From an uncultured Lachnospiraceae bacterium (GTDB lineage: Bacteria > Bacillota > Clostridia > Lachnospirales > Lachnospiraceae), in contig CACZFF010000023.1 in assembly GCA_902780385.1 (NCBI GenBank), positions 1 to 42,019 on the forward strand: a stretch of DNA of 42,019 bases, written 5' to 3'. Under the pieces are notes generated by a model. That model was not told where the DNA came from, did not search any database, and saw only the letters and a program-made list of their open reading frames with translations. The number at the start of each line of letters is the position of its first letter. The stretch's first letter is position 1. Both the position numbers and the translations under genes were made by a program. Positions 5,486 through 42,019 of this stretch are shown piece after piece.

Positions 5486-5799
5486 TCTTCCCTTCGTGAC
5501 CTCACAAACTCTGCGTATTTTCTTATTTCTTCTAATTCTTCCGGAGTGTAATCCTTACCATCAAAGTGGGCTGCCAGCGTTTTAGGAGATTCGTCGACAA
5601 GATCTTCGGATAATAATTCATCAGCCGTCACTCCCAAAGCATGAGCGATTTTGATTATCAAATTAATATCCATTCTGTTGCTATCTCTCTGAATTAAAGA
5701 ATAGATTGTAGACGCTCTTACACCAATCTTCTGAGCAAGTTCGTTGGCGTTAGTATTCCTGCTTTTCATGAGATATTCAAGTCTTTTACCGATTCCCAT
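5482..5799 (-). CDS. CI-like repressor, XRE family
   Basis: A 105-aa protein with an N-terminal XRE/HTH domain at residues 5-62 (ELAQKIGVRASTIYSLIQRDS is the HTH) and a short charged tail (YTPEELEEIRKYAEFVRSRREE). It lacks a LexA-like autocleavage domain, which fits regulation by the ImmA protease encoded next. It has a good GGAGGG ribosome site. It should bind the TACGCA-type operators in the divergent region 5800-5963, repress the early promoter and hold lysogeny. Confidence 0.92.
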   Translation of the reverse strand: MGIGKRLEYLMKSRNTNANELAQKIGVRASTIYSLIQRDSNRMDINLIIKIAHALGVTADELLSEDLVDESPKTLAAHFDGKDYTPEELEEIRKYAEFVRSRREE

Positions 5800-5824
5800 A
5801 ACGTGCCCTCCTTTATTTAATTCA

Positions 5825-5853
5825 AATTTAGCACCTGTGCGTAATTAAGTAAA
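5825..5853 (-). promoter_or_regulatory. Leftward (repressor) promoter
   Basis: Minus strand: TTTACT, 17-base spacer, TAAATT. A TGCGTA half-operator (5838-5843) lies in the spacer, which suggests autoregulation. The hexamers are weaker than those of the rightward promoter. Confidence 0.5.
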
Positions 5854-5939
5854 TAGGAATTTACGCAACTGAATAAAAAAATATTGACAAGATACGCATA
5901 AGCGTATATCATAAGGCTTAAATGATACGCAGGTGCGTA
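5838..5939. promoter_or_regulatory. Operator cluster TACGCA-N2-TGCGTA
   Basis: The perfect site is TACGCAGGTGCGTA (5926-5939). A near-perfect site TACGCATAAGCGTA (5893-5906) lies in the spacer of the rightward promoter. Half sites occur at 5862-5867 (TACGCA) and 5838-5843 (TGCGTA). The arrangement is that of a CI/Cro-type genetic switch. Confidence 0.8.
5884..5912 (+). promoter_or_regulatory. Rightward early promoter
   Basis: TTGACA, 17-base spacer, TATCAT. The spacer is occupied by an operator, so repressor binding would block RNA polymerase. It drives the early operon starting at 5964. Confidence 0.85.
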
Positions 5940-5963
5940 AATATCAAAAGAAAGGAGTTATAG

Positions 5964-6182
5964 ATGGGATATCGGAACTTAAAAGCAGAGATGGCAAGAA
6001 AAGATATCACTATTAAAGACCTTATGGCCGTGACGGGAAAATCCAGACCCGGTATTTCGAACAACTTGAACGGCAGAGGCAGATTTACGGTGGAAGAGAG
6101 TCTTGCTATCAGAAGAGCATATTTCCCGGAGATGAGTATCGACTACTTATTTGAGAGCGATGAGGATCGGGAAGAAAACTAA
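5964..6182 (+). CDS. Cro-like HTH regulator
   Basis: A 72-aa single-domain XRE-like protein (IKDLMAVTGKSRPGISNNLNGRGRFTVEES is the HTH, about residues 17-47), first gene of the rightward operon behind AAAGGAG. Position opposite the repressor, with shared operators between, is that of Cro. It could also act as an excision or early-gene regulator. Confidence 0.82.
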   Translation: MGYRNLKAEMARKDITIKDLMAVTGKSRPGISNNLNGRGRFTVEESLAIRRAYFPEMSIDYLFESDEDREEN

Positions 6183-6193
6183 GGAGGGAAGTC

Positions 6194-6343
6194 ATGGTGG
6201 CAGCAGTATTCATTGGAACATTTTCCGCTACATACTTTTGGCTCCGGAAGGCTGCCGGGGCAGCGGTGCTCAATGCAGTCATGGGATCTTCCCTGATGGC
6301 ACTGGCATTCATCACGGCCGGCCGGGTCTGGGGCCTGATCTGA
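6194..6343 (+). CDS. Small membrane protein
   Basis: A 49-aa frame with ATG behind AAGGAGGG. It reads as two hydrophobic segments split by a basic WLRKAAG turn (MVAAVFIGTFSATYF and AVLNAVMGSSLMALAFITAG). Tight spacing (12 bases after the previous stop, 12 before the next start) fits an operon member. Function unknown. Confidence 0.65.
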   Translation: MVAAVFIGTFSATYFWLRKAAGAAVLNAVMGSSLMALAFITAGRVWGLI

Positions 6344-6355
6344 AAGGAGGGCACT

Positions 6356-6589
6356 ATGCGCAAAGCCATTCGACAGCTGGATTTCAAGGAGATGATCCGG
6401 AGGAAAGCGCACGACCTTGGGATGTCCCTGGAGCAGGTCAGGGAAAAGACAGGGATGTCGGAATCCACATTTTACAGGCGGGTGAAGCATCCGTCGGATC
6501 TGACGCTGAGAGAGGTCTACATTCTGGACCTGTACCTGCATTTTGATGACAAAGAAAAATTGGAACTCGCGAACCTGAAATACAGATAG
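6356..6589 (+). CDS. HTH DNA-binding protein
   Basis: A 77-aa protein with an XRE-like helix-turn-helix (MSLEQVREKTGMSESTFYRRVKHPSDLTLREVYIL, residues 23-57). Strong AAAGGAGGG site. It resembles Firmicutes phage early regulators. Its target is unknown; excisionase or auxiliary repressor are possible. Confidence 0.78.
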   Translation: MRKAIRQLDFKEMIRRKAHDLGMSLEQVREKTGMSESTFYRRVKHPSDLTLREVYILDLYLHFDDKEKLELANLKYR

Positions 6590-6596
6590 GAACCAT

Positions 6597-7316
6597 ATGA
6601 ACTCGAAAGCCAAAGCCCAGAAAGCCAAAGCACTCCGCTATAAAAAGCCCATCGTCAGGGACATGAACCTGTGCACGATCAAGGAAGAACTCTGGGAGAT
6701 GATCGATACCTGTGACCAGGTCAGATATTTCATAGAGTGCGACACAGACGAAACGCTCCTGGACGCAATGCTGGGCGACGAGGAAGAAGTGACTGAATTT
6801 AAATGGATGTTCGCGGACCTTTCGGCGGAGTGCGAACGCTTTTCAGAAGATCTCGATGATTGGGAATGGAGCGACTACATCGAGCGGTACTACGACCTGT
6901 TCATGGTGAACGGCCATATCCATAACGACTTTGGAGGGCTGCTTGGATACGACCAGAGCGAGGGCGATTACTTCGGCCTTGACAGTACCTACGAGAGCGA
7001 CATGGCGGAGAAGGAAGCGGGAAAGAAGCTCATGCATGACCTGACCAAGGAAAAGATGCTGGATCTGTTCGGCCGGTGCATGAGGCTCTTCACCCAGTAC
7101 TTGGGCATCCGGTACAGGTATGACTGCCTGGAGGCGTCAATGGCCATCCTCCGCGACCAGAACGCAGCCCGCTTCAAGATGGTGAAAAGGATTAACGAAT
7201 TATACGAGAAGGTGGACGAGGAGACGCGTGGCTTTGAATTCTGCTTTGCGAGCAAAGAGGCATACCAGGAGCTGGATAACCTGATCGAAGCCATGCCGCA
7301 GGAAGCCTTCCTTTGA
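6597..7316 (+). CDS. Hypothetical acidic early protein
   Basis: A 239-aa protein with a basic start (MNSKAKAQKAKALRYKK) and a long acidic, aromatic-rich middle (DDWEWSDYIERYYDLFMVNGHIHNDFGGLLGYDQSEGDYFGLDSTYESDMA), followed by helical sequence. Similar proteins are, from memory, common in early regions of gut Clostridia phages without assigned function. It lies seven bases after the HTH gene. Confidence 0.75.
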   Translation: MNSKAKAQKAKALRYKKPIVRDMNLCTIKEELWEMIDTCDQVRYFIECDTDETLLDAMLGDEEEVTEFKWMFADLSAECERFSEDLDDWEWSDYIERYYDLFMVNGHIHNDFGGLLGYDQSEGDYFGLDSTYESDMAEKEAGKKLMHDLTKEKMLDLFGRCMRLFTQYLGIRYRYDCLEASMAILRDQNAARFKMVKRINELYEKVDEETRGFEFCFASKEAYQELDNLIEAMPQEAFL

Positions 7317-7326
7317 GGAGAAAACT

Positions 7327-7662
7327 ATGAAAAAAGCATTATTGACAATGATCCTGTGCATGATGACCACGATGTCGGTCATGGCCGGGGAAGACTACTC
7401 AGACGGGGACCGGCAGCAGGTGTACGTCTGGATCCAGGAGGGAGACGGACGGTTCTGTTATATCAATGACGGCGGCTGGTCTGAGGCCCAGATGCTGACA
7501 GGCTGGCACACCATTGATGGGGAGACCTATTACTTCTATCCCCAGGAGATGGAAGACGCCAGGTATGGCCAGATGGCCACCGGGGAAGTCTGGATCGGCG
7601 CATGGGTGTGCTACTTCGATTCGGAGGGCCATCTGACAGACTGCCAGAGAGGAGTCTGGTGA
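7327..7662 (+). CDS. Exported protein with choline-binding-like repeats
   Basis: A 111-aa precursor: residues 1-20 are a signal peptide (MKKALLTMILCMMTTMSVMA, AxA-like end), and the rest contains CW_binding_1/choline-binding-type repeats (GWHTIDGETYYFYPQ at 59-73; TGEVWIGAWVCYFDSEGHL at 85-103). It should be secreted and bind the host wall or its teichoic acids. It is in the early operon, not the lysis cassette, with the L,D-transpeptidase-like gene two genes on, which suggests wall alteration such as superinfection exclusion. That role is inference. Confidence 0.78.
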   Translation: MKKALLTMILCMMTTMSVMAGEDYSDGDRQQVYVWIQEGDGRFCYINDGGWSEAQMLTGWHTIDGETYYFYPQEMEDARYGQMATGEVWIGAWVCYFDSEGHLTDCQRGVW

Positions 7663-7946
7663 TGATCATCCTTACACAGAACAAGCAGGCCATCTGGAAT
7701 TTCGATGATATCTCCCGGCTCCATGTGACCGGAAGAGGGACCGGTATTCAGGCGGTGGCCAGGAACGGATCCGGGGGAGAAGTCGCCCAGTACCGGGACA
7801 GAGAACAGGCTACTTATGTCATGGAGATGCTGGCCTCAGCAATATCCGCACAGGAAAATGTCTTCGCGTTTCCCTCAGAGCGGGAACTGCAGCATGCCAA
7901 ACAGCATACATCAACAGGTGGAGGAAAACGCCATGGGAGTTCTTAA
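7662..7946 (+). CDS. Small conserved protein, unknown function
   Basis: A 94-aa protein; ATG at 7662 overlaps the previous TGA, behind GAGAGGAG. It begins MIILTQNKQAIWNFDDISRLHV, a pattern I know from short Firmicutes mobile-element proteins (I-x-TQNK-x-x-I-x-NFD). It has one compact beta-rich domain followed by a YRDREQATYVMEMLASAI helix and a polar tail. A longer frame from 7602 lacks a ribosome site. Confidence 0.7.
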   Translation: MIILTQNKQAIWNFDDISRLHVTGRGTGIQAVARNGSGGEVAQYRDREQATYVMEMLASAISAQENVFAFPSERELQHAKQHTSTGGGKRHGSS

Positions 7947-8634
7947 CGCAAAGAGGATGAAACGGATCCTGTTGGTAGCCATGGCCTGCCTGTTGGCGGC
8001 CTCCCCTGTATATGCCGGTGACGGAAAGATGGGGAAGCGCCAGAAGACCAAGGAAGAAAAGGAGATAGAAAAGGCCGAAAACGAGAAGAAGTACAAAATG
8101 TTCGACAGCAACGGCGTCCGCATAAATCTCTTTTTCGACCACGGCAAATACTCAAAGACCCCATCTGCAGATGTGAAGAAGAAGGCCCAGACGGTCAGCA
8201 GTGATACAGAATACCTAATCGTCGCAGATCTGCGATACGGGAAGATGTGCCTCTTCGCGTATCGCGGCCGCAGGGGCAAGCGCAAGCTGGTGAAGGCTGC
8301 GCCATGCAGCTCCGCGGCGAATATACCGGGAACCAAGACGACGAAAACACCGTCCGGTTCCCACAAGATTGGGTGGAAGACAGACCGCCTGGTCTACAAG
8401 AACAAGGAAGGGAAACGGTGGCAGTACTGGAGCTGCTCCATGACCTGGGAAGGCTGGGGCATCCATTCCCTTACATACCACATGTACGCCCGGTATAAAT
8501 ACGACCGGATGTACCTCCTGGGCGGCAAATTGGGCGCCCATAACTCCCCGGCCTGCATAAGGACCGAAAACGCTATGGCCGACTGGATCTATAAGCACTG
8601 CGGCCGGGGAACAGTGATCTACGTGATCAGATAA
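7933..8634 (+). CDS. Exported L,D-transpeptidase-like (YkuD) protein
   Basis: A 233-aa protein with signal peptide residues 1-28 (KRMKRILLVAMACLLAASPVYA), a basic/acidic linker (31-58) and a YkuD domain at about 90-233. The family motif region is GAHNSPACIRTENA: His203, Ser205, Cys208 (nucleophile) and Arg210, with an upstream His178 (GIHSL). Variants replace the usual HGC with PAC. YkuD enzymes make 3-3 crosslinks in peptidoglycan or attach wall proteins. The ATG at 7933 has GGAGG ten bases upstream and overlaps the previous gene by 14 bases. Early-operon location implies a change of the host wall in infection or lysogeny rather than lysis. Confidence 0.82.
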   Translation: MGVLNAKRMKRILLVAMACLLAASPVYAGDGKMGKRQKTKEEKEIEKAENEKKYKMFDSNGVRINLFFDHGKYSKTPSADVKKKAQTVSSDTEYLIVADLRYGKMCLFAYRGRRGKRKLVKAAPCSSAANIPGTKTTKTPSGSHKIGWKTDRLVYKNKEGKRWQYWSCSMTWEGWGIHSLTYHMYARYKYDRMYLLGGKLGAHNSPACIRTENAMADWIYKHCGRGTVIYVIR

Positions 8635-8736
8635 CAAATATGCGAGCGTGGGCAATAAGAGAACAGCAATCCTAAGACTGGAGACAAACACGAAAGACCC
8701 ATGCCATGACCATATAGGGACTTGCCGGGTCCCAAA

Positions 8737-8862
8737 GCAGCCTTAGCACAGCAGCGAGTGCAGAGCCTTTTAACCAGTCCCAGACGGAAAGGAAAAATGT
8801 TTTTATCTCCTGATACTTACCCACGGAAGGCAAAAGACGCCGGTGCGAGTCCGGCAGGCTGT
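8737..8862 (+). ncRNA. tRNA-like RNA A with enlarged anticodon loop
   Basis: It can fold as a cloverleaf: acceptor GCAGCCT/AGGCTGT (7 bp, one G-U), TA, D-stem GCAC/GTGC with loop AGCAGCGA, anticodon stem GCCTT/AAGGC, and T-arm GCCGG-TGCGAGT-CCGGC. The anticodon loop is about 57 nt, not 7. The T-loop has G for T55 and the D-loop lacks GG, so it is more diverged than its neighbour. A CCTTTTAACC stretch near the D-stem resembles a tRNA-Lys loop. A short ribosome site + ATG frame inside (8797) is probably chance. Confidence 0.45.
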
Positions 8863-8867
8863 GATCA

Positions 8868-8991
8868 GCACCTTTAGCTCAGCAGGGAGAGCATCCGCGC
8901 AATCTATCTGTATCCATAAGCCATTCAGACCTCCAGGAATGCTTATCAATAACCTACAGCGGAAGACGCCGGTTCAAATCCGGCAAGGTGC
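8868..8991 (+). ncRNA. tRNA-like RNA B with 60-nt anticodon loop
   Basis: Every cloverleaf helix is intact: acceptor GCACCTT/AAGGTGC (7 bp), TA at 8-9, D-stem GCTC/GAGC with loop AGCAGGGA (A14, GG, A21), anticodon stem TCCGC/GCGGA, variable AGAC, T-arm GCCGG-TTCAAAT-CCGGC, then five T. The anticodon loop (8899-8958) is 60 nt and contains a hairpin: ATAAGC-(C)-ATTC/GAAT-GCTTAT with loop AGACCTCCAG. No T33 or purine-37 loop can be recovered by removing a simple block, so it is probably not a decoding tRNA. A minimal intron or a tRNA mimic are alternatives. Confidence 0.6.
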
Positions 8992-9025
8992 TTTTTGTAA
9001 AAAGTAGACCAAGGAGGAGACCTCG

Positions 9026-9238
9026 ATGTCCAGAGAACCAGTCAACAACCCATGCCGGCCCTGCTGGCAGTGGACATACTGCATGGAGAGATCCAGAGGC
9101 ATGAAATGCAAAGGATTCATGACATGGGAAGAGGCCAGAGAGGCCAGCGGATATGAAAGGTTAGACCTCCACAACAAAAAGAAAGGAGACGCAAATTGTT
9201 CGACAGATTTGGAGAGTTCGACAGCTATGAGCAGCTGA
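9026..9238 (+). CDS. Small cysteine-rich protein
   Basis: A 70-aa protein behind AAGGAGGAG. Cys10, Cys13, Cys19 and Cys28 (CRPCWQWTYC ... GMKC) could hold one metal ion. It ends inside the next gene (43-base overlap). Its ribosome site can fold into GAGG-AGA-CCTC (9014-9024), which may limit its translation. Function unknown. Confidence 0.6.
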   Translation: MSREPVNNPCRPCWQWTYCMERSRGMKCKGFMTWEEAREASGYERLDLHNKKKGDANCSTDLESSTAMSS

Positions 9239-9684
9239 ACGAACTGGCAGAAAACCTCTTTAACGAGGGAGACCTTGACGGGATCCGGATCCTGGCAGAA
9301 GAGAACGGGATCGGGGAATTCGCAGGCCCTTACATCGAGGGCGATATCCCGTCGCTTTGCGACGCCGAGACGGCAGCAGTAGGCAAGCTGACCGTCGAGG
9401 CGGACGCGCTGAAACTGAAAGGCCTGATGCTCGACTGGCTGGAATATGCCAAGGCCCTGGCAGCCAAAAAGGAGGAGGTTGCCATCGGGATTAGGCGCAA
9501 GAACAGGAGCCTGGAAGGCTGCATGGCCGTGCTCCTCAAAGCTGCATTCCAGTTCCAGATGCCGGTGGATGACAAGATCATTAAGGCGGCCGGCATCAAG
9601 GGAGCCGGTAAAGTCACCTTCGGCGTGCCGTCCATGGGAGAAGCTAAGAAACTGATCAGCCAATATTACGGAGGCAAAAAGTGA
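9196..9684 (+). CDS. pcfK: PcfK-like protein
   Basis: A 162-aa protein with a TTG start chosen for GAAAGGAG eight bases upstream. It resembles PcfK, which pairs with PcfJ in pCF10-type conjugative plasmids and in many Firmicutes phages: FDSYEQLNELAENLFNEGDLDGIRILAEENGI at the N-terminus and a C-terminal helical KVTFGVPSMGEAKKLISQYY. The pair is adjacent here and coupled by a GTGA overlap. Its role in phages is unestablished; proximity to replication genes suggests DNA metabolism. Confidence 0.72.
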   Translation: MFDRFGEFDSYEQLNELAENLFNEGDLDGIRILAEENGIGEFAGPYIEGDIPSLCDAETAAVGKLTVEADALKLKGLMLDWLEYAKALAAKKEEVAIGIRRKNRSLEGCMAVLLKAAFQFQMPVDDKIIKAAGIKGAGKVTFGVPSMGEAKKLISQYYGGKK

Positions 9685-41864: not shown

Positions 41865-42019
41865 ATGGCTCTCAAAGTAATTGACATATCCTACTACAAT
41901 ACCATCACTGATTGGTCAAAGGTCAAGACGGCCTGCGATGCGGTCATCATACGGCTGGGGTACAGAGGATGCACTTCGGGCAAAATCGTCTACGATGAGC
42001 AGTTTAAGACGTTTCTGGA
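41865..42019 (+). CDS. Endolysin, N-terminal portion
   Basis: The start of the 455-aa lysin that continues at position 1 of the window. ATG 41865 has TTTGGAGG eight bases before. The first residues, MALKVIDISYYNTITDWSKV, are the GH25 N-terminal strand with Asp7. Bases 41921-42019 equal 1-99, so the frame joins seamlessly at the ends. Confidence 0.93.
   Translation, partial: MALKVIDISYYNTITDWSKVKTACDAVIIRLGYRGCTSGKIVYDEQFKTFL
41921..42019. repeat. Terminal direct repeat, right copy
   Basis: Identical to 1-99; shows the contig closes into a circle. Confidence 0.95.

Follow-up and report, generated by a model that had tools for sequence, protein, structure and literature searches.

The window, a stretch of 42,019 nt analysed here as a whole, is contig C23 of the 3.3-Mb draft genome of an uncultured Lachnospiraceae bacterium. 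It contains integrase, repressor, portal and terminase genes, and because its two ends (1-99 and 41921-42019) are identical, giving a 99-nt terminal overlap, it is probably a circular phage genome. It also carries an RNA unit composed of a leader, a short hairpin and two adjoining tRNA-like elements, A and B (Table 1). Comparison of this unit with its relatives shows that, by sequence, 8635-8991 is a structured noncoding RNA under selection in temperate phages. It consists of a predicted kink-turn leader, in most cases a spacer hairpin, and at least one tRNA-shaped module in which a variable stretch takes the place of the anticodon loop. We consider it very probable that this RNA is a maintained tRNA mimic that does not decode and has a leader dedicated to it. 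In the following, related loci are designated by L numbers and genomes by G numbers.

Fold and detection of the tRNA-like pair

An earlier note, made from the letters of the window, had placed the pair at 8737-8991, with a GATCA spacer, four helices per copy, loops of 60 nt in B and about 57 nt in A, and no T33 in the loop of B. All of this holds, with the qualification that the loop of A measures 57 nt only if its anticodon helix is displaced (8765-8769/8827-8831, at distances of 3 nt from the D stem and 7 nt from the T stem). The other helices of A are an acceptor GCAGCCT/AGGCTGT with one G-U pair, a D arm GCAC/GTGC and a T arm GCCGG-TGCGAGT-CCGGC, the T loop being TGCGAGT. Copy B has acceptor GCACCTT/AAGGTGC, D arm GCTC/GAGC, anticodon stem TCCGC/GCGGA, 1 nt from the D stem and 4 nt from the T stem, and T arm GCCGG-TTCAAAT-CCGGC; it keeps the D-loop GG and the T-loop TTCRA. 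The unconstrained minimum-energy fold of 8635-8992 contained all annotated helices of the leader, the hairpin, A and B. Folding energy z-scores were -1.10 for A and -1.85 for B, which is weak evidence on its own.

The covariance search proposed in the earlier note succeeded for one copy. Using lax filters, the Rfam tRNA model matched B above the family cut-off (E 3.6e-10), and A was unmatched. Copy B was missed by the default Rfam scan at gathering threshold and by ARAGORN without introns. When introns were allowed, ARAGORN called both copies, with anticodons that disagreed between sister phages. In a 1.3-Mb Markov control the best tRNA-like match scored 38, the same as A, as against 43 for B, and scores of 37-38 were also found at unrelated places (L014, L038, L051, L057). 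Support for copy A thus comes from its being conserved and adjoining B rather than from scan score.

A Shine-Dalgarno-like AAGGA(G) is present in several inserts (window 8780-8799, L020, L011, L045.2). In the insert of copy A this stretch is followed by ATG. Separately, by eye, the outer part of the hairpin inside the B loop is weakened in the sister phage L050.

Table 1. Positions of the RNA unit, its parts and neighbouring features in the window
Feature	Position	Strand	Evidence
Leader RNA, 82 nt, beginning directly past the L,D-transpeptidase stop (8634)	8635..8716	+	Model R1, 73.4 bits (window among the model's own sequences)
Leader helix P1, 5' strand, pairing with 8711-8715	8638..8642	+	Both-side change in 5/5 pairs (10 sequences); 84% of cells paired
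Kink-turn GA, non-bulged strand	8644..8645	+	Invariant in 10/10 sequences
Leader helix P2, 5' strand, pairing with 8698-8704	8646..8652	+	100% of cells paired; both-side change in 2/7 pairs, 5/7 never varying
Kink-turn bulge CAT and GA, bulged strand	8705..8709	+	S-A-(T/C)-G-A in 10/10
Short hairpin GGGAC...GTCCC, leader-to-A spacer	8717..8733	+	Folding; 1 change in 8717-8736 relative to L050
tRNA-like element A	8737..8862	+	tRNA-like scan score 38; all annotated pairs standard; no Rfam match
Anticodon-loop region of A, 57 nt, containing AAAGGA-AAA-ATG	8770..8826	+	Loop size requires the shifted anticodon stem
Linker GATCA between A and B	8863..8867	+	Same in sister phage L050
tRNA-like element B	8868..8991	+	RF00005, 51.1 bits; tRNA-like scan score 43
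Anticodon loop of B, 60 nt, inner hairpin ATAAG/CTTAT and CATTC/GAATG, no T33	8899..8958	+	Folding
YkuD L,D-transpeptidase gene, directly upstream	7816..8634	+	PF03734, 1.7e-9
Promoter-like site, early operon running toward the RNA	5884..5912	+	TTGACA-17-TATCAT, 11/12

Selection and covariation in related phages

The sister phage L050 (genome G019, same genus) is 94% identical to the window over the region. None of the 128 arm positions differed between the two, whereas 9 substitutions and 4 insertions or deletions (indels) were counted in 122 positions of the loop regions, 5 of which belong to an unchanged stem strand of A; the difference between 13 loop-region events and no arm change is significant (Fisher p 6e-5). 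The leader was unchanged as well (0/82). The stretch just past B had 3 substitutions and 2 indels in 34 positions, and the flanking genes differed at 16/704 (YkuD, compared part) and 23/213 positions. Between L036 and L042, changes were found only in the loop, plus one in the T loop. The earlier note had named a lack of compensatory changes in relatives as the outcome that would speak against a mimic, and such changes did occur: comparison of elements L045.1 and L066.1 showed them in all of the acceptor, T and anticodon stems, with one terminal pair broken, and comparison of L045.2 and L066.2 showed one in the acceptor. Because arms are unchanged or compensating while loop regions change, the predicted tRNA shape is kept and the anticodon loop is free to vary.

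Although the earlier note had recognised the tRNA-like pair, it overlooked the leader (8635-8716) and the family beyond the window. The leader was found through the comparison with L050 and with a related viral contig, L012, where its conservation equals that of the tRNA arms. Searches by pattern and by model then added more phages carrying it. Leaders of the window and L012 share 81 of 82 bases; the hairpin and the tRNA-like module are swapped. Longer spacer hairpins stand in L012, L036, L042, L043, L045 and L066. Among 10 leader sequences, both-side changes were seen in 7 of 12 pairs, with P2 occurring as TGGG/CCCA, GAGG/CCTC, AAGG/CCTT and ATGG/CCAT. The covariation score was 0.407 for a structure drawn from the same 10 sequences, against a shuffled mean of 0.140 (0/500 shuffles as high) and at most 0.126 in slid controls. 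Between P1 and P2, GA faces S-A-Y-G-A, which we take to be the kink-turn consensus. The leader thus combines two covarying helices, a 3-nt bulge and tandem G-A/A-G, and is a predicted kink-turn.

At 12 of 12 loci a tRNA-like element was found 2-57 nt downstream of the leader, re-fetches of the same places (L007, L034, L040, L075, L085, L088, L091 and others) having been removed before counting; in shuffled downstream sequences the frequency was 1/3600. Five of the loci (L036, L042, L043, L045, L066) had been found by the leader pattern alone. The anticodon loops ranged from 11 to 170 nt (L012, 11; L045.1 and L066.1, 26; L036, 44; window and L050, 55-61; L020, 83; L011, 170). The tRNA-like scan does not use the anticodon stem. 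A 5-bp stem in the canonical place was present in 4 of the 13 elements tested, and was reached by very few of 4000 shuffles (B, 1; L012, 1; L020, 0; L011, 0). In A, L036, L045.1 and L066.1 a GC-rich stem was displaced, and 1-43 of 4000 shuffles reached it. The Rfam tRNA model reported eight elements of the 12 loci at its cut-off, and L012 at 46.7 bits in a separate search. Arrays with other predicted hairpins between the tRNA-like elements were observed on the minus strand of L045 (11080-11774, three elements over about 0.7 kb) and of L066 (1135-1436, where the scan gave two elements spanning 0.3 kb; a third was recognised by eye).

The family is narrowly distributed. The leader was detected in 3 of 62 genomes of the genus, in 1 of 392 of the order, the source genome, and in 2 of 196 of the class, of which the source genome alone is credible. 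The other class-level match, in G572 (24.9 bits), has no element scoring at least 36 nearby, and by eye it looks coding, with a normal-looking tRNA downstream. Leader-pattern scans of viral contigs returned mostly chance matches (true members 6/14, 5/15, 2/13 and 3/17), and model R1 gave at best 17 bits on 38 of the 41 distinct chance loci (all except L060, L061 and L064), as against at least 59 for members. By blastn, the window RNA was unmatched in annotated phages and plasmids, and the L045 and L011 units in annotated phages. A search with the PcfJ gene gave no relative, and of 11 stretches with the T-arm DNA pattern none had an odd-gap element scoring at least 33. Membership in any other Rfam family was ruled out, no match being found in the default and lax scans of the window or at gathering threshold at the 12 loci. 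Among the open-licence papers listed, none was recognised by title and abstract as dealing with this RNA element. We regard the existence of a new and narrow family of RNAs, built around a tRNA-mimic core, as well supported.

A second family of tRNA-like sequences, in which the anticodon arm is enlarged and contains a conserved hairpin AAATCC-TGNNCG-GGATTT, was observed at 25 places in 15 of the 62 genus genomes (L101-L120, L141-L159; for example L103:1499-1611 on G028:C21, and G019:C42:25433-25545). Its 22 distinct sequences have both-side changes in 11 of 26 predicted pairs, and tRNAs are densely arrayed, with at least 10 matches each, in 5 of the 11 regions that were counted. R1 found no leader in 13 of the 15 genomes; the other two, G001 and G019, have it on other contigs. 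Two further objects were seen in passing. L048:451-548 (G000:C84) is a tRNA-Trp-like gene whose anticodon arm is tandemly duplicated, which could be an assembly error. L161:1501-1530, in Gordonia phage Boopy, is an unannotated tRNA-like 5' half in a tRNA/tmRNA array, near an annotated gene for a Ro-like RNA binding protein; the scan found no complete tRNA-like element in that region.

Predicted expression and possible functions

The leader starts within 5 nt of the upstream gene's stop codon at 9 of 12 loci, and at the other three (L006, L011, L013) no same-strand open reading frame (ORF) ends within 80 nt upstream of it. The promoter-like site listed in Table 1, about 2.7 kb upstream of the RNA unit, is the sole one in 5700-9300; shuffled sequences average 3.0, so it is a consensus match only. 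In L011, the leader is preceded at a distance of about 60 nt by the end of an 11/12 promoter match, the next downstream gene encodes an HTH_3 domain, and a divergent 221-aa ORF is repressor-like by eye. L006 has a weak promoter match (9/12, one of four found). Given the promoter-like sites in the window and L011 and the gene context of L011, early expression of the RNA unit is likely. YkuD or choline-binding-like genes are often near it, a count that is biased because L006, L011, L012, L013 and L020 were located via the YkuD gene. Each of the 9 phage records, some of them fragments, has a single leader.

We propose that the unit would be transcribed together with the early operon. RNase P, RNase Z and the CCA-adding enzyme are guided by the acceptor, D and T arms of their substrates, and for this reason processing to small tRNA-like RNAs is expected. 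By recognising elbow and acceptor, these enzymes would release stable, non-decoding RNAs of about 125 nt. No encoded CCA is present in the elements examined, and it is equally absent from 31 host tRNAs recovered by the scan (20 stretches), so this says nothing about processing. The tRNA body would serve as handle and shield and the insert in the anticodon arm as the variable part; for the leader, a role in cis as a necessary module for protein binding or folding is probable. The most likely use, which we put forward with low confidence, is that of a decoy occupying host proteins that bind the tRNA elbow, acceptor or tail, tRNA-targeting defences included. Occupying such proteins would be the most economical use for the phage. 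In a broader version, held just as tentatively, the family might be a natural tRNA-scaffold system, in which the tRNA body is an interchangeable, kink-turn-led carrier whose variable payloads jam or redirect host tRNA enzymes or defences. If so, it would be a modular, fast-evolving arsenal, as suggested by the window and L012, where near-identical leaders precede swapped hairpins and tRNA-like modules.

Several observations weigh against a non-decoding mimic with its own leader, or limit it. Copy A is without a match in Rfam even at E 10 under lax filters, and the Rfam tRNA model with default filters is silent on the L020, L011, L013 and L006 elements. No anticodon stem was found under the set rules in 4 of 13 elements (L043, L045.2, L045.3 and L049 of the second family), and that of L066.2 is weak, 229 of 4000 shuffles reaching it. 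A large insert is not obligatory, as the loop of L012 measures 11 nt. Part of P1 is disrupted in L011, L013 and L006, and among the five covariation measures the number of further pair types is at chance level (9 against 8.2 in shuffles, 206/500). The 12 loci represent fewer lineages, since window and L050, L036 and L042, and L011, L013 and L006 are close relatives and L012 shares the leader of the window. The scan threshold of 37, on which the 12/12 count of downstream elements depends, was chosen after the L011 type had been seen. The inserts showed no convincing complementarity to their own phages (13 inserts, both strands). Within the decoy reading, a plain anticodon-nuclease decoy is disfavoured, since the anticodon loop itself is missing.

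Two alternatives would make the elements true tRNAs, past or present. If they were remnants of phage tRNA genes, in decay or damaged by insertions, arms like those of ordinary tRNAs would be no surprise, and indeed the second L066 copy agrees with a G000 tRNA at 37 of 41 compared arm positions; the L045.3 and L043 copies are imperfect. Decayed tRNAs were nonetheless rejected on the absence of arm changes against 13 loop events in the sister phages. Compensatory arm changes and the recurrence, at 12 loci, of this architecture together with its leader point the same way, so that the suggestion of a degraded pair, made in the earlier note, finds no support and decay appears very unlikely. Functional tRNAs with a new small intron would explain why the inserts sit at the usual tRNA intron site and why ARAGORN calls both copies once introns are allowed. 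However, in none of B, L050 B, L012, L020, L011, L036, L045.1 and L066.1 does a single contiguous removal produce a 7-nt loop carrying T33 (0/8 removals for each); copy A alone among the nine loops permits it (6/8 removals). In addition, no group I intron was matched by covariance search in the window, nor at gathering threshold at the 12 loci, and the anticodons called by ARAGORN differ between sister phages. Small-intron tRNAs were rejected on the failure of 8 of 9 loops in the removal test, and we regard them as highly improbable. Because no single intron removal gives a 7-nt U33 loop, the four element types with a canonical stem (B, L012, L020, L011) are, on the predicted folds, not intron-bearing tRNAs. 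The earlier proposal of a tRNA mimic rather than a decoding tRNA is thus well supported, by arms that stay fixed or compensate while the loop drifts and by a copy B from which no removal yields U33.

Other alternatives accept a noncoding RNA and assign it another role. As a cis-acting operon element, the tRNA shapes could split the early mRNA through cutting by RNase P and RNase Z, or leader and fold could antiterminate RNA polymerase, for which the put RNA of phage HK022 is an analogue. The tight spacing to the upstream stop codon, the position of the L011 leader just past an early promoter-like site, and the single leader per phage record agree with this, whereas the long variable inserts, the arrays and the D- and T-loop conservation are left unexplained; no boxA-like site was noticed by eye, and no search for boxA was made. 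We think such an element rather unlikely. A regulatory or antisense RNA acting through its insert on a tRNA scaffold, with P4 CI RNA and P1 C4 RNA as analogues, is about equally doubtful. The inserts are the fast-changing part, the location is in an early operon, and the insert of A contains AAAGGA-AAA-ATG; but by eye the small frame in A is lost in L050, and 26 tests of complementarity to own phage or contig (13 inserts on 2 strands, leaving out L042, L012, L006, L013 and L049) gave one nominal match (L020, 0/40 shuffles), as expected by number. Compared with the decoy, a regulatory RNA on a scaffold and a cis-acting operon element fit almost equally well. A relative of the bacterial Y RNA YrlA, used with Ro protein, would be suggested by the second Rfam match of the window, to YrlA across the A/B junction (17.1 bits, E 0.74), and YrlA has a tRNA-like domain (PMC7790460). 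The gathering score of 69 is far from reached, a junction of the A/B type exists only in the window and its sister among the 12 loci, and TROVE, the Ro protein domain present in 7 of 62 genus genomes, is absent from all three leader-bearing drafts (G000, G001, G019). Y RNA identity was rejected on the score and on the lack of TROVE, and is hardly credible. As an observation on the same stretch, a YrlA-like permuted tRNA module could arise at 8839-8893 from A's T arm, the GGCTG-TGAT-CAGC junction and B's D arm.

Phage tRNA genes have been under debate for decades. A family in which the tRNA body is retained without decoding would separate a tRNA-like shape from a part in translation, and it allows the decoy and scaffold ideas to be put directly to the test. 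ARAGORN without introns and default Rfam miss the RNA in the window, a blind spot in which more such RNAs may hide in phage genomes, as the finding of a second family suggests.

Comparison with known systems

Bacterial Y RNAs have reportedly been treated as tRNA mimics in an earlier study. Like the phage RNA, YrlA (RF02553) is a noncoding RNA with a tRNA-like module joined to a further domain, but its model is permuted, in the order T arm, acceptor-like stem, D arm, whereas the phage elements follow the normal tRNA order. In PMC7790460, the tRNA-like domain of YrlA is proposed as a possible competitive inhibitor of an anticodon nuclease. ROOL and GOLLD are likewise noncoding RNAs encoded by phages and prophages, frequently close to tRNA islands (PMC12286853); they span hundreds of nucleotides and have other folds. 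No Rfam match to ROOL, GOLLD or tmRNA was found in the window or at the 12 loci, and ARAGORN reported no tmRNA in the window.

An immunity directed at tRNA tails is that of Cas12a3, which contacts the T arm and the CCA tail (PMC12851939). Phage tRNAs that escape anticodon nucleases are described in PMC10264068 as tRNA bodies with changed anticodon loops. Their presumed role is to replenish the tRNA pool, and they therefore still decode, unlike the elements of the window, which cannot. With tRNAs (RF00005) and phage tRNAs in general, the elements share the acceptor, D and T arms and, in copy B, the D-loop GG and T-loop TTCRA; they differ in an anticodon loop of 11-170 nt instead of 7, in the impossibility of a U33 loop in 8 of 9 cases, in being unable to decode, and in the dedicated, predicted kink-turn leader. 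In artificial tRNA scaffolds, too, a foreign RNA sits within the anticodon arm, where the tRNA body lends it stability. Those scaffolds are man-made, and the phage RNA would be a natural case.
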